This document shows, in pieces, positions 22,473-32,903 of a DNA stretch of 64,000 bases. The notes under the pieces were generated by a model. That model had not been told where the DNA came from. It saw only the letters and a program-made list of their open reading frames with translations, and ran no database searches. The position numbers were made by a program, and so were the translations under genes. Origin of the DNA: Bradyrhizobium sp. BTAi1 (GTDB lineage Bacteria > Pseudomonadota > Alphaproteobacteria > Rhizobiales > Xanthobacteraceae); assembly GCF_000015165.1 (NCBI RefSeq), contig NC_009485.1, positions 6,777,501 to 6,841,500 on the forward strand. The letters are read 5' to 3'. Every line of letters starts with the position of its first letter. Position 1 is the stretch's first letter.

Positions 22473-22769
22473 ATGAAGACGTTCACTCAGCTCACCACCG
22501 CCGCCGCCCTTGCTCTCGCGCTTCTGACCCCCGCCCTCGCCGCCGATGCCATCAGCGGCGACGTCAAGAAGGTCGACGAAGCCAACGCCAAGATCACCCT
22601 GCATCACGGCCCGGCCAAGAGCCTCGGCATGGACGAGGCCATGACCATGGTCTACCGCGTCAAGGACGCCGCGATGCTCAAGGGCCTCAAGGCCGGCGAC
22701 AAGGTCAAGTTCGAGGCCATCGAGGAGCCCTCCGGCTACACGGTGACCAAGATCGAGAAGGGCAAGTAG
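22473..22769 (+). CDS. cusF: CusF-like copper-binding protein
   Basis: Periplasmic protein of 98 residues with a clear signal peptide (ALALALLTPALAA). The short OB-like domain has the CusF pattern: ISGDVKKVDEANAKITLHHG with its His, then the Met-containing GMDEAMTMVYRV. The usual Trp of CusF is not evident (it seems replaced by Tyr). Last gene of the copper operon, after a palindromic repeat. Confidence 0.85.
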   Translation: MKTFTQLTTAAALALALLTPALAADAISGDVKKVDEANAKITLHHGPAKSLGMDEAMTMVYRVKDAAMLKGLKAGDKVKFEAIEEPSGYTVTKIEKGK

Positions 22770-22877: not shown

Positions 22878-22916
22878 TTAACGCTTTGCTAACCATGAGG
22901 CGGGCAAGCTTTGCCG
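22878..22916 (+). promoter_or_regulatory. CtrA-like box plus GGCAA/TTGCC palindrome, module shared with flhA
   Basis: The stretch reads TTAA-N7-CTAACCAT-N5-GGGCAA-N3-TTGCCG. The same arrangement with the same spacings occurs at 30586-30624 ahead of flhA. TTAA-N7-CTAA(C) is one mismatch from the CtrA consensus TTAA-N7-TTAA(C). The module lies 175 bp before the TTG start chosen for the TPR-glycosyltransferase. Shared use by a flagellar gene suggests common regulation. Confidence 0.55.
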
Positions 22917-23091
22917 CGTCGCGCTGCGCGTGGCGGGCCGCCGGATCATCGCTCCGGCGAGCCCTGCCCGTCGCGGCTGCCGGCACGACGGCGCAATCGG
23001 CCCGACCTGCGGCCCCCGGCGGGGCGCTCCGCCGAGCGCGGCGCCAGGCCCGTTCGAACGCGCCACCGCACAGTTCGCCCGGAGAAAAGCC

Positions 23092-25314
23092 TTGAGCACC
23101 GTTGGTTCGCGCGCCTTCCAGAAGGCCCGGCAGGAGAAGAAGCAGAAGAAGCTGGTCGAGACGCAGCTGACGGCGGCGTACACGGCCTATCGCGCCGGAC
23201 GGCAGGCGGAGACCCAGGCGATCTGCGCGGCGCTGCTGCAGGAGGTGCCGAGCTGCTTCGACGCTATGCATCTGCTCGGCGTCTCGCTCGTCACCAGCTC
23301 GCGTTTCGTCGAGGCCACCGGCTTCTTGACCCAGGCGGTCGCGCTGGAGCCAAATTCGGCCGATGCGCAGTCCAATCTCGGCTGGGCACTGGTCAATTGC
23401 GAGCGCTACGAGGAGGCGCGCGCCGCGCTGGAGCGATCGCTCGCGCTGCGGCCGAACGCGCCGGTCACGTGGCGGAATCTGGCGATCGCCCTGCTGCGGC
23501 TGAAACAGGGCGAGGCCGCCCTCGACGCCGCGACCCGCGCCCTCCAGCTCAAGCCTGACGATGTCGATTCCTGGTGCAACCGCAGTGTCGCCGAGCTGAT
23601 GCTGCGACGCTGGGACGCCGCTGCGGCCAGCGCCGAGCGCGCCTTGAGTTTCAACCCGGCGCATTTCGAAGCACTGGTCAACAAGGGCCTCGCGCATCTC
23701 GAACTGCATCATTTCGAGCTGGCGGAAGCGACGTTCAACACAGCCCGCGCGGTGCGGCCGAGCAATGCCGAGCTGCTGGCGCATCGCGGCCGGCTGTTCA
23801 TGCTGAGCGGGCGCAATGCCGAAGCCGAAGCCGAGTTCGACGCCGCGGTCGCGCTCGATCCCCGGCTGCAAGTGGGCTGGCAGGGCAAGGCGCAGATCGC
23901 GATGCTCAACGGCAACATCGCCCAGGCGATGGCGGCCTGCAAGCGCGTGCTCGACCAGAACCCGACGGCCCAAGTGGCGCTGACCTTGCTCGGCGCCTGC
24001 CAGGGACGGCTCGGTGACATCGAAGGCGCGATTGCGCGCTTCGATCAGGCGCTCGCGGTGCAGCCGGACTATGACGAGGCCATCACCAAGAAGATCTTCT
24101 ATCTCGACTTCCTCTCCGGCGCCGACTTCGCGGTCCAGCAGGCGGCGCGCTATTATTGGTGGGTGGCGGTCGGCTCGAAATTCCCGCGCCGCAAGCTTGC
24201 CGCACGCGCGCTCGATCCCGAGCGGCGCATCGTCGTCGGCTACGTCTCGGCCGACTTCCGCACGCACTCGGCCGCCTTCGCCTTCCTGCCGGTGCTGCGC
24301 GGGCACGACAAGACGCAGGTGCAGGTCAATTGCTACTCGTCCTCGCCGCGCCACGACGACTTGACGGCGACCTTCCAGTCCATCGCCGACGTCTGGGTCG
24401 AGGCGGCCAACCTCTCCGACGACGAGCTCGCCGATCGCATCCAGGCGGACGGCGTCGACATCCTGGTCGATCTCTCCGGCTACACCACGGGCACGCGGAT
24501 GCCGGTGTTCGCGCGCAAGCCGGCGCCGATCCAGGTCACCGCTTGGGGCAGCGGCACCGGCACGGGGCTTGCGACCATGGACTATTTCTTCGCCGATCCC
24601 GTCACGGTGCCCGCAAACGTCCGGCCGCTCTTCGCCGAGCGCGTGCATGACCTGCCGTCGGTGATCACGATCGATCCCTTGCTCGACATTCCGCCATCGC
24701 CGCCGCCGATGCTGCAGAACGGCCACGTCACCTTCGGCGTCTACAATCGCATCGACAAGATCTCCGACGAGGCGATTGCCTTGTGGGCGCGGCTGCTCGG
24801 CGAAGTGCCGGACGCCAAGCTCGTCGTCAAGCATCTCGCGCTCAACGATCCCTTGGTGCGCGACGGCCTGCTCGGCCGCTTCGTGACGCAGGGCGTTAAG
24901 GAATCGCGCATCCTCTGCCTCGGCGCCAGCGCGCGCAGCGAGCATCTGCGATCGTTCGACCGCATCGACATCGCGCTCGATCCGTTCCCGCAGAATGGCG
25001 GCATCTCGACGTTCGAGGCGCTCTACATGGGCGTGCCGGTCGTTGCCAAGCTTGGTGCCGGCGCGGCCTCGCGGGCGGCGGGCGGCATCCTGACCGCGGC
25101 CGGCCTGTCCGATTGGGTCGCCGACGATGACGACGGCTACATCCGCATCGCCAAGACATTTGCCGCGCAGCCCGAGCTGCTGGCACAGCTGCGCACCGAG
25201 CTGCCCGGCAAGGTCGCACGCTCGCCTGCCGGCGACGTCGCCCACTACACGCGCTGCGTCGAGGCGGGCTATCGGCAGTTCTGGCGGGACTATTGCGCCA
25301 AAGCCGGCACCTGA
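23092..25314 (+). CDS. TPR protein with C-terminal O-GlcNAc-transferase-like (GT41) domain
   Basis: Protein of 740 residues. I prefer the TTG at 23092 because CGGAGAAAAGCC is an excellent ribosome site and the family-like N-terminus (SRAFQKARQEKKQKKL) begins there; the frame is open back to 22930. Residues about 25-350 hold roughly ten TPR units (for example PNSADAQSNLGWALVNCERY). Residues about 380-715 form the SPINDLY/OGT-type catalytic domain: VGYVSADFRTHSAAF, DILVDLSGYTTGTRMPVFA, and the donor-site block LDPFPQNGGISTFEALYMGV. Caulobacter flagellin glycosyltransferases are TPR proteins, and this gene shares a promoter-like module with flhA. Flagellin modification is therefore a reasonable guess, but only inference. 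Confidence 0.88.
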   Translation: MSTVGSRAFQKARQEKKQKKLVETQLTAAYTAYRAGRQAETQAICAALLQEVPSCFDAMHLLGVSLVTSSRFVEATGFLTQAVALEPNSADAQSNLGWALVNCERYEEARAALERSLALRPNAPVTWRNLAIALLRLKQGEAALDAATRALQLKPDDVDSWCNRSVAELMLRRWDAAAASAERALSFNPAHFEALVNKGLAHLELHHFELAEATFNTARAVRPSNAELLAHRGRLFMLSGRNAEAEAEFDAAVALDPRLQVGWQGKAQIAMLNGNIAQAMAACKRVLDQNPTAQVALTLLGACQGRLGDIEGAIARFDQALAVQPDYDEAITKKIFYLDFLSGADFAVQQAARYYWWVAVGSKFPRRKLAARALDPERRIVVGYVSADFRTHSAAFAFLPVLRGHDKTQVQVNCYSSSPRHDDLTATFQSIADVWVEAANLSDDELADRIQADGVDILVDLSGYTTGTRMPVFARKPAPIQVTAWGSGTGTGLATMDYFFADPVTVPANVRPLFAERVHDLPSVITIDPLLDIPPSPPPMLQNGHVTFGVYNRIDKISDEAIALWARLLGEVPDAKLVVKHLALNDPLVRDGLLGRFVTQGVKESRILCLGASARSEHLRSFDRIDIALDPFPQNGGISTFEALYMGVPVVAKLGAGAASRAAGGILTAAGLSDWVADDDDGYIRIAKTFAAQPELLAQLRTELPGKVARSPAGDVAHYTRCVEAGYRQFWRDYCAKAGT

Positions 25315-25660
25315 TCGGCCGTGCGGCTCTTGCCGCGCACGGCAGAGAGTTCGTTCGCAGACCGCATCGATGCGTCCTACCGGGTCTTCGGGAGCCTCTC
25401 GGGTATCGGAGGTACAACCGATAGCTGTAACGGTTCCCGCTGTGCCCTTTTGGCCGGGCCCGATGTAACAATGCCTCTCACTGGCGAAACCAGGGCGCAT
25501 TCAAGTTGATGGCTTTTTAGTGGCGACGTGCCGCCACTGTCTCGGCCAAATAGCGACCAACCGGCGAGTAGTAGACGGCCTTCGCGGAACGCCGACATAA
25601 TCGACCAGAACAACGACCGTGCCGCGATCATCGTGCGGCCGGCAATGGGGGATCTGGGGC
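25315..25660. other. Intergenic region, nothing recognised
   Basis: About 346 bp between the glycosyltransferase and the second TAXI gene. I see no repeat family member, terminator with a T-run, or credible small gene. A promoter for the TAXI gene presumably lies here. Confidence 0.5.
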
Positions 25661-26824
25661 ATGCGGGTCGCGTGGTTGAGTTGCGTCGTTGCGGCGGGAT
25701 TGAGTCTGGCGACTGCGCTGCTGCCCGCCGCCGCACAGACCGCGAAGCCGGCAAAATCGGCGACGGCGGCCGCCGCCGGCGAAGGCGGCAAGCTGCAGGA
25801 GTCCAACGAATGGACGGTCGGCATTGCCGGCGGCCTGCTCGAAGGCACCAACATCCGCTTTGCCGCCGAGATGGCCAAGGTGCTCGACGATCGGCCGAAC
25901 CTGCGCGTGCTGCCGATGGTGACCTATGGTGCGCTCGGCAATATCGAGGACCTGCTGTATCTGCGCGGCGTCGACGTCACCATCACTTCGGCCGACGTGC
26001 TCGACGAGTTCGTCCGCAACGGCACGCTCGCCAACATCAAGAACCGCATCCGCTACATCTGCTCGTTCTACATCAACGAGATGCATGTCTATGTCCGGCC
26101 CGAGATCAAGACGCTCGAGGACCTCGCCGGCAAGAAGGTCTCGTTCAACACGGTGGGCAGCGCGGCCAACCTCACCGGCGGCATCGTGTTCGACCGGCTC
26201 AAGATCAACGCCGAGAAGGTGTTCATCAACAATTCGGTGGCGCTGGAGAAGATGCGCAGCGGCGAGATCGCCGGCGTGGTGCATGTGACCGGCAAGCCGA
26301 CCGACCTGTTCGCCAAGTTCAAGCCCGAGCCGGGCTTTCATTTCCTGCCGATTCCGTTCGCGCGCAGCCTGCAGGACTATTACGTGCCGACCAAGCTGAC
26401 CTCGCAAGACTACCCCAACCTGCTTAAGCCCGGCGAGACCGTCGAGACGATCGGCGTGCCGCAGGTGCTGGCGGTGTACAACTGGTCGCCGGAGACCGAG
26501 CGCTATCGCCGCGTCTCGCGTTTCGTGGAGTATCTGTTCAAACGGTTCGACCAGTTCAAGCAGCCGCCCTTCCACCCGAAATGGAACGAGATCAACCTCG
26601 CCTCCTCGCTGCCCGGCTGGACCCGCTTCCGCGCCGCCGAGGAGCTGCTCGCGAGCAGCCGCCCGCCCGAGGCCGAGGCCGCCGCGGTCAAGCAGCAGTT
26701 CGACGAGTGGATGAGCGCGAGAACCGCGACCGGCGGCCGGCGCCTGAGCAATGATGAGGCCAAGGTGCTGTTCGAGCAGTTTCAGGACTGGATGAAGCAA
26801 AGCGGCGGACAGCCGGCGCGATAG
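25661..26824 (+). CDS. TAXI-family solute-binding protein (orphan, paralogue of 15190-16476)
   Basis: Periplasmic protein of 387 residues. The start at 25661 gives a signal peptide (WLSCVVAAGLSLATALLPAAAQ) and follows GGGGGAT; the frame extends to 25619. The fold matches TAXI proteins: GIAGGLLEGTNIRFAAEMAK, then LYLRGVDVTITSADVLDEF, FYINEMHVYVRPEIKTLEDL, and YPNLLKPGETVETIGVP. The C-terminal block RFDQFKQPPFHPKWNEINLA resembles the paralogue at 15190. No TRAP permease is adjacent. It may serve a permease elsewhere or act as a sensor. Confidence 0.85.
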   Translation: MRVAWLSCVVAAGLSLATALLPAAAQTAKPAKSATAAAAGEGGKLQESNEWTVGIAGGLLEGTNIRFAAEMAKVLDDRPNLRVLPMVTYGALGNIEDLLYLRGVDVTITSADVLDEFVRNGTLANIKNRIRYICSFYINEMHVYVRPEIKTLEDLAGKKVSFNTVGSAANLTGGIVFDRLKINAEKVFINNSVALEKMRSGEIAGVVHVTGKPTDLFAKFKPEPGFHFLPIPFARSLQDYYVPTKLTSQDYPNLLKPGETVETIGVPQVLAVYNWSPETERYRRVSRFVEYLFKRFDQFKQPPFHPKWNEINLASSLPGWTRFRAAEELLASSRPPEAEAAAVKQQFDEWMSARTATGGRRLSNDEAKVLFEQFQDWMKQSGGQPAR

Positions 26825-26838
26825 CGCCGTCGCTCGGA

Positions 26839-27510
26839 CTACGATGAAGTGGGCGCGCGCCGCAGCGACTCCGGCGTATCCGGCTGCGCCAGCGGATGCG
26901 CGGCCGCGAAGGCGGGCAGCGCCATCGCGGCCTCGACGACGCGCTGCACCGTCGGCGCCCCGCCGAGATCGAGGCCCTGGTTGCGTGCGAACAGCGCATG
27001 GCCGGCGAGGCAGATGTCGGCGGTGGTCGGCGCATCGCCATGGGCGAAGCGCCCCGTGGCGCCATCGCCCGCGAGCCGCGCCTCGACCGCGCCGAGCATC
27101 TCCGCGGCCCAGTACCTGAGCCAGGCCGCGCGCGCCGTATCGTCGAGGTGCAGCACCTCGGTGAGATAGCGCTGCACCCGCGGTGTCGTCAGCGGATGCG
27201 CATCGCACGCGATCATCGCCGCCAGCGCCCGCACCCGCGCCCGCCCCTTGGGATCGGCCGGCAGCAGCGCCGGACCGGGACAGGCCTCGTCGAGATAGTC
27301 GAGGATCGCCAGCGACTGCGTGAGCACCGTGCCGTCGTCCAGCACCAGCGACGGCAGCGCCATCTGCGGATTGACCGCCGCATAAGCGCCTTCCCGATGC
27401 TGCTGGCGGTCGACATCAACCGTGATGAGCTCGTAGGCGACGCCCTTCAGATTGAGCGCGATCCGCACCCGGAAGCTCGCAACCGACCGCCAGAACGAAT
27501 AGAGCTTCAT
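26839..27510 (-). CDS. maiA: Maleylacetoacetate isomerase (zeta-class glutathione transferase)
   Basis: Enzyme of 223 residues that isomerises maleylacetoacetate to fumarylacetoacetate in tyrosine/homogentisate breakdown, with glutathione as cofactor. The zeta-class active-site start is LYSFWRSVASFRVRIALNLK (Ser near residues 7-10). The later NPQMALPSLVLDDGTVLTQS binds glutathione, and the C-terminal helical domain follows. The start at 27510 has GGGAGA upstream; 27531 is the alternative. No other homogentisate genes are in the window, so it appears isolated. Convergent with the TAXI gene, 14 bp apart. Confidence 0.85.
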   Translation of the reverse strand: MKLYSFWRSVASFRVRIALNLKGVAYELITVDVDRQQHREGAYAAVNPQMALPSLVLDDGTVLTQSLAILDYLDEACPGPALLPADPKGRARVRALAAMIACDAHPLTTPRVQRYLTEVLHLDDTARAAWLRYWAAEMLGAVEARLAGDGATGRFAHGDAPTTADICLAGHALFARNQGLDLGGAPTVQRVVEAAMALPAFAAAHPLAQPDTPESLRRAPTSS

Positions 27511-27563
27511 CAAGCCGTCTCCCATCGCCACCGGACGGCGCGCCCGAGCTCAATTCCTTTGCC

Positions 27564-28067
27564 TCACTCCGCGCCCGGCGCAAAGTCCAGATCCGCAACG
27601 CTCGCGCTTTGTGGCACCTTGATCACGACGGCGGCGCGGTTCAGCGCCTGATGACAGGAATTGCAGGCCGCCGTGAGATCGGCATATGACTGCTCGAAGC
27701 GACCGATGTCCTTCTGCTTGATCGCCTGCGCCAGCGCCTCGAACGGCTGTTGGGTCACCGCCGTCGTCATGTCGGCGAAAGAATTGCCGTCCACCAGCGG
27801 CTGCGCACGGCTGACCCGGTTCAAGGCGCCCTTGAGATTCCCGAGCTCATAGGCGCTGAACGCCCAATTGCCGCTATGGGCGGCGATCCACAGCCGGATG
27901 TGGCGCGGCTGGATGGTCGCGATCATCAGGTCGCTGACACTCGGCAGATAGGCCGGTGACGGCGGCGGCGTCTCCGCGCGCAAGCCGACGCCGGTCGCGA
28001 CGATCGCAAGTCCGGCGAGGGTTACTGCGGTCAATGTCAGCCGCAGGCGGTGGTGGGGTGGATACAT
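27564..28067 (-). CDS. Periplasmic c-type haem protein, single CxxCH
   Basis: Protein of 167 residues with a signal or anchor segment at 11-30 (LTAVTLAGLAIVATGVG). One haem-attachment motif, CNSCH, is at 135-139, in a helix-rich context (QSYADLTAACNSCHQALNRA) that resembles cytochrome c'-like four-helix proteins. A candidate Irr box lies 19 bp before the start, which suggests iron control of a haem-requiring protein. The redox partner is unknown. It is followed by maiA on the same strand, 53 bp away, and the two may be co-transcribed. Confidence 0.8.
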   Translation of the reverse strand: MYPPHHRLRLTLTAVTLAGLAIVATGVGLRAETPPPSPAYLPSVSDLMIATIQPRHIRLWIAAHSGNWAFSAYELGNLKGALNRVSRAQPLVDGNSFADMTTAVTQQPFEALAQAIKQKDIGRFEQSYADLTAACNSCHQALNRAAVVIKVPQSASVADLDFAPGAE

Positions 28068-28084
28068 CCTGGCTTCTCCTTCAA

Positions 28085-28101
28085 ATTAGAAACGTTCTAA
28101 A
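28085..28101. promoter_or_regulatory. Candidate Irr box / iron control element
   Basis: ATTAGAAACGTTCTAAA has perfect TTAGAA/TTCTAA arms with a 3-bp centre. It differs at one position from the ICE/Irr consensus of Rhizobiales as I recall it (TTTAGAA-N3-TTCTAAA). It ends 18-19 bp upstream of the c-type haem protein start, where Irr binding would block transcription under low iron. Confidence 0.55.
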
Positions 28102-28432
28102 AAGAAGCTGCCTGGGATGCCAATCGCGATTGCTGATCGCAACCATCAGAAAAACTTGATGCCGCCTGCCGCACGGCCAGCATGATCACGACACAGTTTG
28201 TCGGCCGGCACGATCGTCTCGCGGCGATGCGCGGGGGGAGCACGAGACACCGCGGTCGTAGGGCTCTGACGCCGAGCCGTCGTAGATGGACGCATGCGCA
28301 GCCGAAGCGAAAGCTGCTCTGCGAATTACGGTGACGGTAATGGACAACGAGCTGCTGCTTGATTGAAAGGAACTGAGCTCCATCGATGATGCATTTGTCT
28401 CGAAGGAGCGCCGGCCTCATCGACGCGTTGCG
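28102..28432. other. Intergenic region, nothing recognised
   Basis: About 330 bp between the Irr-like box and the end of the amidinotransferase gene. Short open frames here lack ribosome sites and family resemblance. Base composition is somewhat less GC-rich than the neighbours. Confidence 0.45.
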
Positions 28433-29410
28433 TCAATCGGCCCGCAGCAGCGGCTGCGTGCTGCAGCGAAATCCGCCGCCCATCGATCGGGAGATGGCGA
28501 AGTCGACATATTCTACCGCGACGCCATGTCGGGCGAGCGCCTCGCCAACCGCTGCAAAAGCAGGATCGGTGATATAGATGTCGGACGTCACCGGCAGGCC
28601 GTTCACGGCCAATTGGGCCACCTCATCGAGACCGACAGCGATGCGGGTCCAGTTCGCAAGCGCCGAGGGCACGCCGTCGAGGAAGGCGTCCTCGCAGACG
28701 ACCATCACACCCGGCCGGACCAGGCTGAGCGCACAATCGAGATGGAGCACGTCGGGCCGCAACCTGACGCCTTCCACGGTATAGCCCATCGGACGCAGCA
28801 GATTGGCCAACCATCGGATGCCAGCGTCGTTCGATGCCAGCCCCGATTGCCCGACAAAGACGTGACGCCCCAGGATCAGAATGTCGCCGCCCTCCAGGAA
28901 CGGGCCGGCGCCGCCGTCATCGTCGTCGGCGATCGCCGGCTGCGGGACTGCGACATAGAGGCAGCCAGTCCGCATCGCCCAGTCAAAGATCAGGTCGCGG
29001 GCGGGCAGGACTTCGATGCGGCGATACACAAAGCGCAGCGAGCCTTCGATCAGGAAAGGTCCGATGGTAAAGAACGGATCGCGCGTGAAGAAGTTGGCGT
29101 AGCCCCTGGCGCCGGCAAAGGCCTTCTCCGCCGCGTTCAACTTCCGCGGTCGCAGCACCTCGACCTGATGCCGGCGCAGCACCACCGCGAGCGCCTCGCG
29201 CTCGGCTTCCCAAGCGCGCTGCACATCGGGATGGCTCTCAGCCAAGCTGCGGCCAGGCGTTTGAGATCCTGCGGCGCTCGCCTGTTGCGGAAGGAATGCC
29301 AGATCTGCCGGCAGCGGCATGGCGTCGGGCGCGCGAAACTCGCATTCGGCGAGCACCACCGTGCGCAGGCGTGCGAACTCGCTGTCCACGAAGATACGTG
29401 TCGCATCCAT
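28433..29410 (-). CDS. Amidinotransferase-superfamily protein
   Basis: Protein of 325 residues with the pentein fold of arginine deiminases, dimethylarginine hydrolases and amidinotransferases. Visible motifs are NFFTRDPFFTIG near residue 100, FLEGGDILILG near 175 (substrate Glu/Asp), VLHLDCALS near 225 with the catalytic His, and the C-terminal GGGFRCSTQPL with the nucleophilic Cys near residue 316. The start at 29410 follows CGGAG; the frame opens at 29434. Whether it transfers or hydrolyses the amidino group cannot be read from sequence. It stands alone, followed by a long non-coding stretch upstream. Confidence 0.83.
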   Translation of the reverse strand: MDATRIFVDSEFARLRTVVLAECEFRAPDAMPLPADLAFLPQQASAAGSQTPGRSLAESHPDVQRAWEAEREALAVVLRRHQVEVLRPRKLNAAEKAFAGARGYANFFTRDPFFTIGPFLIEGSLRFVYRRIEVLPARDLIFDWAMRTGCLYVAVPQPAIADDDDGGAGPFLEGGDILILGRHVFVGQSGLASNDAGIRWLANLLRPMGYTVEGVRLRPDVLHLDCALSLVRPGVMVVCEDAFLDGVPSALANWTRIAVGLDEVAQLAVNGLPVTSDIYITDPAFAAVGEALARHGVAVEYVDFAISRSMGGGFRCSTQPLLRAD

Positions 29411-29889
29411 GGCTTCGGCTCCGAGCGAGATCATCGATCCTCCGACGCAGAGGTCCGCGCGGATCAGCTGCTGGCGACAGCATCAAGAACAGTGACGCGC
29501 CTTGGCCGGACAACGGCAAATAGACACCGCGAACTCGGTTGTCTAGATCCCACGCCGCCCCCTCAATCCAGGAGACCTCGGCGGCCTGTTCGGAAGGATA
29601 GCGTCGCTTCGGTAGTCTATGCGCGAGCCGGACAAGTCCGCCTCGAGCACCAGCCTGATGACAGCCGCGGCAAAGCCGTCACCATGACCGGAGCGGCTTT
29701 AGCGCAAGCTACTTCCGGTTGCGCAAACAACCGAACACTAATGCGATGAATGCTCGCGCTCGATCGCCAGCAACCCGCCTGACTGACAGGGTATGACGCA
29801 CCCACCCGATCAACTTCCGATTTACAGAATTTTTCTTCTTTTCTTTTTTCCAGCATTGGCGTATATCAATCCCGTCCTGCTTCCGGTGG
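29411..29889. other. Intergenic region, no gene seen
   Basis: About 480 bp upstream of the amidinotransferase. It contains a T-rich run near 29825-29850 just before a dispersed repeat begins. No open frame has both a ribosome site and a recognisable product. Confidence 0.45.
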
Positions 29890-30250
29890 AGGGGCGTGTC
29901 GCGACCGTCACGAGACGTGGGAGGTGGGATGCGATGGGCGCAGGGAATCGCAGCGTGGCTTTGTGTCGCGCCGACGAACGGTTCGTTGCGCACGGCGAAG
30001 TCGTGCGGTCCTGACACCCCGATGCTGGTGTCCCGCGGCGAGCGTGCGCAAGCGCCGTCGCGCATGGTGGCCAACAAGCCCGGTGCACCAGGGAGACCAC
30101 GTATAAGCCGTTCCAACCGTCGCGCGGGGAAGGCCGGGCGTGCCCGGCCAGACCTGTGGTGACTGCCGCCTGCTTTTTTTGCTGCAGGCGGGCCACGGGC
30201 GCGGCCAGCGCCCGGCCTTCCCCGCGCCCTCCTTTGTTATGAGGGCGAAC
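29890..30250 (+). repeat. Intact copy of a ~350-bp dispersed repeat
   Basis: This stretch is homologous to the sequence at 38751-38798 plus 40673-41000 read on the opposite strand, where a group II intron interrupts it. Internal landmarks are GGGATGCGATGGGCG, CCAGACCTGTGGTGACTGCC, and perfect 15-nt arms GGGGAAGGCCGGGCG (30126-30140) and CGCCCGGCCTTCCCC (30209-30223). Inside these arms is a second hairpin (CCGCCTGC / GCAGGCGG) with a T-rich loop. The intron target point corresponds to the junction 30201/30202. Confidence 0.8.
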
Positions 30251-30350
30251 CTGATGCGAAAGCTCGGGCGCGATGCGCCGCGAGAGATGATGGCGTATGG
30301 CCGCGGAGAGACATTCAATCGTGCGCGTCGGCTGTCAGGCGCGGCAGGGG

Positions 30351-30393
30351 CCTCACGGTTCGAGACGCGCCTGCGGCGCTCCTCACCATGAGG
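30351..30393. repeat. Palindromic repeat CCTCACGGTTCGAGACGCG...CTCACCATGAGG
   Basis: Third copy of the family seen at 4953 and 11252. It lies in the 1.2-kb non-coding region upstream of flhA; the surrounding 30250-30585 holds no convincing gene. Confidence 0.6.
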
Positions 30394-30585
30394 ATTTTGC
30401 GCCAGCCCCGGCGCTGCACGCTGCGTGCTCATGGCGAGGGTCGAGCGGCGAAATCGGCGCCCCCCTCCCCTTGAGAAGATCGCCGAAAGCGGGCGTCTCG
30501 CAGGGCGAGGCTCGGGCAGGGGCGGTGGATCGGAGCACCGCGGAACACCCCATCCCTTCTCCCCGCAACCCTTTGTTAACCCGCA

Positions 30586-30624
30586 TTAACCGAATGCTAA
30601 CCATACACCGGGCAAAAATTGCCG
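30586..30624 (+). promoter_or_regulatory. CtrA-like box plus GGCAA/TTGCC palindrome upstream of flhA
   Basis: TTAA-N7-CTAACCAT-N5-GGGCAA-N3-TTGCCG, identical in layout to 22878-22916. An additional TTAAC lies just upstream (30576), giving overlapping CtrA-like half-sites. It ends 50 bp before the flhA GTG start. CtrA control of early flagellar genes is established in Caulobacter; use here is inference. Confidence 0.6.
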
Positions 30625-30674: not shown

Positions 30675-32903
30675 GTGGACGCCAGCGCGGTACCTCAGTT
30701 TCGAAACGGCGGCGCAGTGGCCGCCGCGCAGTCGTTTGGGGCCGGGAAACGCGGCTCACGGGAAGGGGCGAAAGCCATGGTCGACGTCACGGCGGGTCAG
30801 GGGGCCGGGTCACCGGCCGGGGGCTACACATTCGGCGATTTCAAGACGCTGATCCTGCGCGGCGACATCGCGCTGGCGCTCGGCATCCTCACCATCCTGG
30901 TGGTGCTGATCCTGCCGCTGCCGGCGATCGTGCTCGACCTGTTCCTGGCGATCTCGATCACGCTGTCGATCCTGATCCTGATGACGGCCCTCTTCATCCA
31001 GGCGCCGCTGGAATTCTCGTCCTTTCCGACCATCCTGCTGATCTCGACGATGCTGCGGCTGTCGCTGAACCTGGCCTCGACAAGGCTGATCCTCAGCCAC
31101 GGCCATGAGGGCACCGACGCCGCCGGCCACGTCATCCAGGCGTTCGGCTCGTTCGTGATGGGCGGCAATTTCGTCATCGGCATCATCGTGTTCGCGATCC
31201 TGGTGACGGTGAACTTCGTCGTCATCACCAAGGGTTCGGGCCGTATCGCCGAGGTCGCGGCACGCTTTCACCTGGATTCGATGCCCGGCAAGCAGATGGC
31301 GATCGACGCCGACCTCTCCGCCGGCCTGATCGACGAGAAGGTCGCCAAGATGCGGCGCAAGGAGCTCGAGGACGAAAGCGGCTTCTTCGGCGCGATGGAC
31401 GGTGCCTCGAAATTCGTCCGCGGCGACGCCGTCGCCGGCCTGCTCGTCGTGTTCATCAACATCATCGGCGGCATCATCATCGGCGTCGCCCAGCAGGGCA
31501 TGTCGTTCGGCGACGCCGCCCGCTCCTACACGGTGCTGACGGTCGGCGACGGCCTCGTCACCCAGGTGCCGGCGCTGATCGTGTCGACGGCCGCGGGCCT
31601 GCTGGTGTCCAAGGCCGGCGTCAGCGGCGCGGCCGACAAGGCGCTGATGCAGCAGTTCTCCGGCTATCCGCAGGCCCTCGGCCTGTCCGCCGCCGTCATG
31701 CTGGTGCTGGCGCTGCTGCCGGGCATTCCGACCCTTCCGTTCCTCGCACTGGGCGGCGGCGCCGCCGCGCTCGCCATCAAGGCGCGCAGGCAGAAGGACG
31801 TCGCCAAGGCGGTCGAGGCCGCGGAGGCGGCGGCGCCCGCCGCAGCCGCCACCGCCGCGGCGGCCGAGGAGCCGATCGCGAACGCGCTGAAGATCGACGA
31901 CCTCAAGATCGAACTTGGCTATGCGCTGCTGCCGCTGGTCAACGGCCCCGACGGCACCGACCGGCTGACCGACCAGATCAAGGCGCTGCGGCGGTCGCTC
32001 GCGATCGAAATGGGCTTCGTGATGCCGTCGGTGCGCATCCTCGACAACGTCCAGCTCGAGGCCAACACCTACATCATCAAGATCAAGGAGGTCGACGCCG
32101 GCTCCGGCAAGATCTGGCCGAACCAGTTCATGGTCATGGACCCCGGCGGCAACCAGGTCGCGGTGCCCGGCATCCACACCACCGAGCCGACCTTCGGACT
32201 GCCCGCCACATGGGTCGACGCCGGCCTGAAGGAAGAAGCGACCTTGAAGGGCTACACGGTGGTGGACGCGGCGACCGTGCTCTCGACCCACCTGACCGAG
32301 CTGCTCAAGGCCAATATGAGCGACCTGCTGTCCTACGGCGAGGTGCAGAAGCTTCTGAAGGAGCTGCCGAAGGAGCAGAGCGAGCTGGTCAAGGACATCG
32401 TGCCGACCCAGATCACGATCTCCGGCATCCAGCGCGTGCTGCAATTGCTGCTGTCGGAGCGGATCTCGATCCGCGACCTCTCAACCATCCTCGAAGGCAT
32501 CGCCGATGCGCTGGCGTTCTCGCGCAATCCGGCCACCATCGTCGAGCATGTGCGCGCCCGCCTCGCCCGCCAGATCTGCGCCCAGAACACCTCGCCGATG
32601 GGCTACCTGCCGCTGATCGCGCTGTCGCCGAAATGGGAGCAGGCGTTTGCGGAATCGCTGATCGGCCAGGGCGAGGAGCGCAGCCTGGCGATGCAGCCGT
32701 CGAAGCTCTCCGAGTTCATGACCGCGACGCGCGATGCGTTCGAGCGGGCCGCGCGCGAGGGCGAGTCACCGGTGCTGGTCACCTCGGCCGCGATCCGGCC
32801 GTTCGTCCGCTCGCTGGTGGAACGCTTCCGGGCGCAGACCACCGTGCTGTCGCAGGCCGAAATTCATCCTCGCGCGCGGCTCAAGACGGTCGGAAGCGTG
32901 TGA
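30675..32903 (+). CDS. flhA: Flagellar export apparatus protein FlhA
   Basis: Core inner-membrane component of the flagellar type III export gate, 742 residues from a GTG at 30675 preceded by GGGGGAG. An ATG at 30777 with AAGGGG upstream is a real alternative and would give 708 residues. Eight or so membrane segments fill residues 60-360, including the FHIPEP family block around MLRLSLNLASTRLILSHGHE. A cytoplasmic domain follows after an Ala/Glu-rich linker near 385-400, with LLKANMSDLLSYGEVQKLL and LSERISIRDLSTILEGIADA. It is the first gene after a CtrA-like promoter module. Other flagellar export genes lie nearby on the other strand. Confidence 0.97.
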   Translation: MDASAVPQFRNGGAVAAAQSFGAGKRGSREGAKAMVDVTAGQGAGSPAGGYTFGDFKTLILRGDIALALGILTILVVLILPLPAIVLDLFLAISITLSILILMTALFIQAPLEFSSFPTILLISTMLRLSLNLASTRLILSHGHEGTDAAGHVIQAFGSFVMGGNFVIGIIVFAILVTVNFVVITKGSGRIAEVAARFHLDSMPGKQMAIDADLSAGLIDEKVAKMRRKELEDESGFFGAMDGASKFVRGDAVAGLLVVFINIIGGIIIGVAQQGMSFGDAARSYTVLTVGDGLVTQVPALIVSTAAGLLVSKAGVSGAADKALMQQFSGYPQALGLSAAVMLVLALLPGIPTLPFLALGGGAAALAIKARRQKDVAKAVEAAEAAAPAAAATAAAAEEPIANALKIDDLKIELGYALLPLVNGPDGTDRLTDQIKALRRSLAIEMGFVMPSVRILDNVQLEANTYIIKIKEVDAGSGKIWPNQFMVMDPGGNQVAVPGIHTTEPTFGLPATWVDAGLKEEATLKGYTVVDAATVLSTHLTELLKANMSDLLSYGEVQKLLKELPKEQSELVKDIVPTQITISGIQRVLQLLLSERISIRDLSTILEGIADALAFSRNPATIVEHVRARLARQICAQNTSPMGYLPLIALSPKWEQAFAESLIGQGEERSLAMQPSKLSEFMTATRDAFERAAREGESPVLVTSAAIRPFVRSLVERFRAQTTVLSQAEIHPRARLKTVGSV

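Follow-up and report, generated by a model that had tools for sequence, protein, structure and literature searches.

A CtrA box with a predicted FlbD operator ahead of flhA and a glycosyltransferase gene in Bradyrhizobium sp. BTAi1

In the chromosome of Bradyrhizobium sp. BTAi1 the flagellar export gate gene flhA and a gene for a TPR protein of glycosyltransferase family 41 (GT41) are preceded by the same 39-bp module, in which the sequence TTAA-N7-CTAACCAT is followed at a fixed distance by the inverted repeat GGCAA-N3-TTGCC. Which factors might recognize the two parts of this module, and what does its presence before a glycosyltransferase gene signify? We investigated these questions in a stretch of 64,000 nucleotides (positions 6,777,501 to 6,841,500 of contig NC_009485.1), here referred to as the window, and in related genomes. 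The sequence comparisons presented below strongly suggest that the module is a class II (early) flagellar promoter, consisting of a CtrA box and an FlbD operator, of a flagellar system served by FlbD.

The module at early flagellar operons

The two copies of the module agree letter for letter and with identical spacings at both positions, on the plus strand (Table 1), as reported in a preliminary description of the window. The composite is also beyond chance expectation, as stated there: no match was found in 100 shuffles of the window, even with three mismatches allowed, compared with the two matches observed. A search of the complete 8.49-Mb sequence for the core TAACCAT-N5-GGGCAA-N3-TTGCC gave two perfect matches and a further five with three mismatches (two for the reversed control); the fliF and flgB promoters account for two of the five. 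With just two perfect core sites in the genome, the idea that the strict 39-mer defines a genome-wide regulon was rejected.

We also scanned 40 genomes of the genus with the looser pattern TTAA-N9-AACC-N-T-N6-GGCAA-N3-TTGCC, allowing at most two mismatches. The composite is present in all 40 genomes, with the same three sequence types (fliF, flhA and flgB) in each, compared with two matches in total for the reversed control. The identity of the genes was read in BTAi1, for flgB also in genome G020 (locus L074), and for flhA in 14 further genomes, while sequence type served to assign the remaining copies. In all 40 genomes the copies at fliF and flhA have zero mismatches; the flgB copies mostly have one, and two in BTAi1 and G025. 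Among the genomes scanned, only BTAi1 has a fourth copy, the one at the TPR/GT41 gene. Across the order, 48 of 101 genomes, including BTAi1 and one congener, have at least one match to the composite (46 of the 99 others; five matches in the control), counted by pattern alone and not assigned to genes. Because it is found at fliF, flhA and flgB throughout the genus, and its pattern recurs in nearly half of the genomes of the order, the 39-bp element is, on this sequence evidence, a conserved early flagellar promoter and no peculiarity of two genes. The bias towards motility genes that the preliminary description had anticipated is thus strong in the genus, the order-wide matches being untied to genes.

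The left part of the module had been described as a CtrA site, and this assignment holds. The CtrA box is defined in a passage of PMC6180460 as TTAA-N7-TTAA. A box of this type stands before the early flagellar operon of flhA, and its right half-site reads CTAA both there and at the TPR/GT41 gene. The FlhA protein most likely starts at the GTG located 50 bp past the module, as this start is conserved in the promoters compared. An extra TTAA is located just upstream of the flhA CtrA box (window 30570-30604) in BTAi1 and in five genomes with an orthologue of the TPR/GT41 gene, and is absent from ten other genomes compared.

The palindrome as a candidate FlbD operator

For the right part of the module the best candidate comes from Caulobacter. 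Passages of PMC3930126 and PMC3096577 describe FlbD as an NtrC-type activator of sigma-54 promoters that is also a repressor of fliF, acting at fliF through the ftr4 site (PMC3930126), and in an experiment related in PMC3096577 deletion of fliX raised fliF-lacZ and lowered fliK-lacZ expression. The BTAi1 gene for FlbD is located downstream of fliF and in the same orientation (NCBIfam equivalog NF050807, 817.6 bits with a cut-off of 750), and the helix-turn-helix end of the protein is near-identical among the 25 relatives compared. A gene for SciP, an inhibitor of CtrA, is located just upstream of fliF, between fliF and the flgD/fliK genes (C1:1946260-1946535, locus L022; NF051866, 137.8 bits with a cut-off of 100). 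Because FlbD activates sigma-54 promoters, its operator is expected to lie at enhancer distance from such promoters, and the distribution of the palindrome is expected to track that of FlbD.

The first expectation was examined in 220 kb of the BTAi1 genome around flagellar genes. With at most one mismatch allowed, the scan found three sigma-54-like sites, before flgF, flgI and flgE (flgF and flgI were named by eye from their translations), and a palindrome with one mismatch is located 101, 110 and 86 bp upstream of them, respectively. A further 51 sites have two mismatches, most of them presumably due to chance; one of them, located before fliK, is preceded at 97 bp by a perfect palindrome. 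The probability of such a neighbour is 0.002 per random site, for a window of 80–115 bp that was picked after the distances were known. The palindrome is thus located at enhancer distance from sigma-54-like class III sites at flgF, flgI and flgE, and at fliK from a weaker sigma-54 site, and this location points to an NtrC-type activator such as FlbD. The palindromic sequence of the module itself, GGGCAA-N3-TTGCCG, was also considered as a sigma-54 promoter and rejected by eye, its GG and GC dinucleotides being 9 or 8 positions apart rather than 10.

The second expectation was assessed at fliF. Genomes were considered FlbD-positive if they contained a match of at least 45% identity reaching over the N-terminal part of the protein; matches that were shorter or weaker were ascribed to NtrC-like paralogues. 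FlbD-positive genomes with fliF numbered 73 (BTAi1 aside), of which 66 were used and seven were left out, contig edges being among the reasons; two of the 66 proved unusable, with the contig ending 38 bases (L200) or 4 bases (L262) before fliF. Among the remaining 64 promoters, nearly all from different families, 45 (16 of 19 plus 29 of 45) contain the palindrome with at most one mismatch, compared with one of eight promoters from genomes without FlbD. This difference is statistically significant (p = 0.003 by Fisher's exact test); in the FlbD-negative set one genome contributes both of its fliF copies and another is 78% complete, while G328, where fliF is at a contig edge, is excluded. In two-base block shuffles of fliF promoters the palindrome appears in 2.4%. 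These results lead us to conclude from sequence that GGCAA-N3-TTGCC is very probably an FlbD site. Among the papers listed in literature searches (12 of 142 in one of them), which covered mainly open-access work, none was found to give an FlbD motif for this genus.

Perfect copies of GGCAA-N3-TTGCC number 15 in the BTAi1 genome, compared with six for the reversed control; four precede fliF, fliK, flhA and the TPR/GT41 gene. Another (C1:2417094-2417106, locus L029) separates a gene identified by eye as a CcrM-like DNA methyltransferase from its divergent neighbour; TAACC also occurs close by, though at another spacing, and an input of FlbD or CtrA to ccrM is possible.

The arrangement resembles the class II promoter of fliF in Caulobacter crescentus, where a CtrA-type half-site is likewise followed at N6 by an inverted repeat, ahead of an early operon that encodes FlbD. 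The C. vibrioides fliF promoter reads TTTACCTT-N6-GGTAA-N3-CTGCC, which has the spacing of the module, and an inverted repeat thus occupies the same fixed place beside the CtrA box in both. The Caulobacter repeat is weaker, however, with two mismatches, and in the strain compared the distal half-site of the promoter reads TAAA in place of TTAA. In the genus of the window the palindrome is tighter at fliF and flhA, while that of flgB is looser, and a TPR/GT41 gene has one as well.

Two other explanations of the palindrome deserve consideration. It could be part of the core promoter, with the left arm serving as the -10 element of a CtrA-activated promoter and the right arm incidental; the Caulobacter -10 element is GCTANAWC. 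The left arm GGGCAAG is indeed kept in eight of ten orthologues of the TPR/GT41 gene while the right arm varies, and the corresponding place in a relative with 68% identity reads GCTAAATC. On the other hand, both arms are perfect at flhA in all six orthologue-bearing genomes read (BTAi1 included) and in the fliF and flhA modules of all 40 genus genomes, and the two-armed palindrome about 100 bp upstream of sigma-54-like sites cannot be a -10 element there. We therefore consider a pure core-promoter role quite improbable, although the roles as -10 element and as regulator site may overlap. The preliminary description had proposed an undescribed co-regulator or a promoter element specific to the group. 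Binding of FlbD in this genus is a prediction, which leaves some room for another protein, but the palindrome at fliF follows FlbD (45 of 64 versus one of eight promoters) and its spacing to sigma-54-like sites fits an NtrC-type activator, which FlbD is. An undescribed factor is accordingly very improbable indeed, and a group-specific element is likewise unsupported, as the palindrome fits FlbD, which is known from Caulobacter. The module is a known kind of element, which the preliminary description spotted correctly and in part misread.

Several observations weigh against the assignment to FlbD. The palindrome is imperfect at flgB, with one mismatch in most genus genomes and two in BTAi1, and 19 of the 64 FlbD-positive fliF promoters lack it at the level of one mismatch. 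In about half of 19 fliF promoters inspected by eye it precedes the CtrA-like site instead of following it at 6 bp. Ten of the 15 perfect palindromes of BTAi1 precede no recognized flagellar gene, and most of these are inside open reading frames. The 220-kb scan detected no sigma-54-like site before the flagellin genes at 5741512-5744862. At the orthologues of the TPR/GT41 gene the palindrome has decayed, being perfect in just three of ten. Finally, in Caulobacterales the palindrome has two mismatches at 66 of 70 fliF loci and one at the other four, and the likely identity with ftr4 rests on analogy of position and regulation, not on a printed consensus.

By extension from Caulobacter, we infer binding, direction of regulation and timing as follows. 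CtrA would bind TTAA-N7-CTAACCAT and activate transcription. FlbD, bound to the ftr4-type operator that begins six bases past the CtrA box, would repress the early promoters of fliF, flgB and flhA once the basal body is under way or signals completion, and would activate the sigma-54 promoters of flgE, flgF, flgI and fliK from a palindrome about 100 bp upstream, turning on hook and rod genes. We suggest that at the early promoters the operator may overlap the polymerase site, because it starts only six bases beyond the CtrA box. The TPR/GT41 gene would most likely be activated by CtrA together with flhA, with FlbD control there weaker or being lost.

The TPR/GT41 gene and its copy of the module

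The TPR/GT41 protein of the window (740 amino acids) has an N-terminal TPR part and a C-terminal glycosyltransferase domain (Pfam Glyco_transf_41, 157.9 bits with a cut-off of 25). Its nearest solved relatives are SPINDLY of Arabidopsis and OGT, and residues 62-736 align with the SPINDLY chains 7y4i and 8dtf. The window protein shares the combination of TPR and GT41 domain with these proteins but is bacterial. True orthologues, with 86-89% identity over the full length, are present in nine of 264 other genus genomes searched, making ten with BTAi1. Four close paralogues are encoded elsewhere in the BTAi1 genome, and looser relatives occur in tandem in several genomes. Three TPR/GT41 paralogues stand in tandem at C1:5848107-5854931 (locus L053) of BTAi1 beside seeming sugar-nucleotide genes, and like sets are found in several genus genomes.

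The two parts of the module are unequally conserved at this gene. The CtrA box TTAA-N7-CTAACCAT is perfect in all ten orthologues and in the 68% relative (G121), and the distance from module to gene is 150-190 bp in the ten. The start of the gene is most likely the TTG 175 bp past the module, where the orthologues start. The palindrome is perfect in three orthologues (BTAi1, G041 and G227), has one mismatch in three others (with a one-base shift in two cases) and at least two in the remaining four. The orthologues with an intact palindrome do not group together in the protein tree, a distribution that agrees with an intact ancestral palindrome and repeated decay. No module with at most four mismatches was found in ten loci of relatives with 56-66% identity (of 21 loci examined). 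Because the box is kept in ten of ten orthologues and the palindrome is perfect in just three, control of the TPR/GT41 gene by CtrA is supported, and plausible on sequence grounds, while control by FlbD is not. Placement in the CtrA flagellar regulon, as claimed in the preliminary description, is supported for flhA and probable for the TPR/GT41 gene. A slightly varied block, CGCGTCGCG-TGCGCGTGGC, directly follows the module (window 22915-22945) in the TPR/GT41 promoters of BTAi1 and five orthologues, perhaps marking a transcription start or leader.

The preliminary description had also called the two genes distant and their sites unlinked, which the gene order contradicts. The copies are 7.7 kb apart on the same strand, and the window contains, in order, a cusF-like gene, a module, the TPR/GT41 gene, a solute-binding protein gene, further genes, a second module and flhA. 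In genomes without the TPR/GT41 orthologue the module directly precedes flhA in all 14 read, and in seven of these the cusF-like gene, module and flhA are adjacent. In six genomes with the orthologue (BTAi1 and five others) two modules flank the segment that holds the TPR/GT41 gene. Where read, this segment is located between a copper cluster and flhA, and the solute-binding gene follows the TPR/GT41 gene in the window and in five orthologous loci. In most of the genus sample flhA has a CTTTGCTAACCAT core, which copy 1, at the TPR/GT41 gene, retains. Copy 1 may have arisen by duplication of the flhA promoter. This is a hypothesis from sequence and stays one because the flanks of the flhA promoter and of copy 1 show no convincing similarity outside the module, and because the cusF-like gene is not always adjacent, being several kilobases off in some orthologue-bearing loci.

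A tentative speculation is promoter capture: in a small set of related genomes a TPR/GT41 gene of the SPINDLY/OGT type would have entered next to the flhA promoter and acquired its own copy of the CtrA–FlbD module. The result would be a lineage-specific protein glycosylation timed with early flagellar assembly, and a later loosening of FlbD repression would let the enzyme persist beyond the early class. Alternatively, copy 1 could be merely a leftover flhA promoter from insertion of the segment that does not drive the TPR/GT41 gene. The arrangement in the 14 genomes (module at flhA, in seven of them after the cusF-like gene), the CTTTGCTAACCAT core typical of genus flhA promoters and the partial decay of the copy 1 palindrome agree with a leftover. 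A leftover is nevertheless unlikely given that the CtrA box is perfect in the ten orthologues and G121 and stands 150-190 bp before the gene in the ten, that no likeness to the flhA promoter was found beyond the module, and that the cusF-like gene is kilobases away in several orthologues.

As for function, a precedent is FlmG of Caulobacter, a flagellin glycosyltransferase whose promoter is, according to a passage of PMC7591256, bound by CtrA and dependent on it. FlmG as described there resembles the window protein in its TPR N-terminus, its glycosyltransferase C-terminus and a promoter under CtrA, the latter indicated for the window gene by its CtrA box. It differs in having 596 rather than 740 amino acids, while the window protein is GT41/SPINDLY-like, and the likeness recognized is one of domain plan. 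In C. vibrioides the window protein matches three proteins of the TPR/GT41 kind, none of which was identified with confidence as FlmG; the one with 596 amino acids by open reading frame calling is not the best match and is located between genes that appear by eye to be fabI-like and fabB-like, with no acetyltransferase neighbour. A passage of the review PMC8429497 raises, with no data given, the possibility of glycosylation of the subpolar flagellum in B. diazoefficiens. By analogy, flagellin or another flagellar protein is a reasonable guess for the substrate of the TPR/GT41 enzyme. Elsewhere in BTAi1, among flagellin and hook genes (C1:5747691-5752884, locus L428), there are a pyridoxal-dependent decarboxylase-like gene and three open reading frames without a Pfam match, one of which starts, by eye, like a glycosyltransferase; these are possible flagellin modification genes.

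Features of the locus and their meaning

The features of the window discussed above are collected in Table 1.

Table 1. Positions of the module copies and neighbouring genes in the window
Feature	Position	Strand	Basis
cusF-like gene	22473..22769	+	CusF match weak, under cut-off
Module copy 1, before TPR/GT41 gene	22878..22916	+	Sequence match
CtrA box copy 1, TTAA-N7-CTAACCAT	22878..22896	+	Pattern; conserved in orthologues
Palindrome copy 1, GGCAA-N3-TTGCC, predicted FlbD (ftr-type) operator	22903..22915	.	Pattern
TPR + glycosyltransferase family 41 (OGT/SPINDLY-like) gene, TTG start (most likely 23092)	23092..25314	+	Family match; start from orthologues
TAXI/NMT1-type solute-binding protein gene	25619..26824	+	TAXI model under cut-off; Pfam NMT1_3 over cut-off
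Module copy 2, flhA promoter	30586..30624	+	Sequence match, genus conservation
CtrA box copy 2, TTAA-N7-CTAACCAT; further TTAA before box at 30576-30579	30586..30604	+	
Palindrome copy 2, GGCAA-N3-TTGCC, predicted FlbD (ftr-type) operator	30611..30623	.	
flhA, flagellar export gate protein, GTG start (most likely 30675)	30675..32903	+	TIGR01398, 906.8 bits, cut-off 772.1

The analysis makes FlbD the likely ligand of a palindrome that would otherwise be puzzling, and provides a precise candidate for its site, GGCAA-N3-TTGCC. Among the GT41 paralogues of BTAi1, it points to one gene as the most likely to be linked to the flagellum. The composite signature, in which a CtrA box and a predicted FlbD site are separated by N6, may help to find early flagellar operons across the alpha-proteobacteria.

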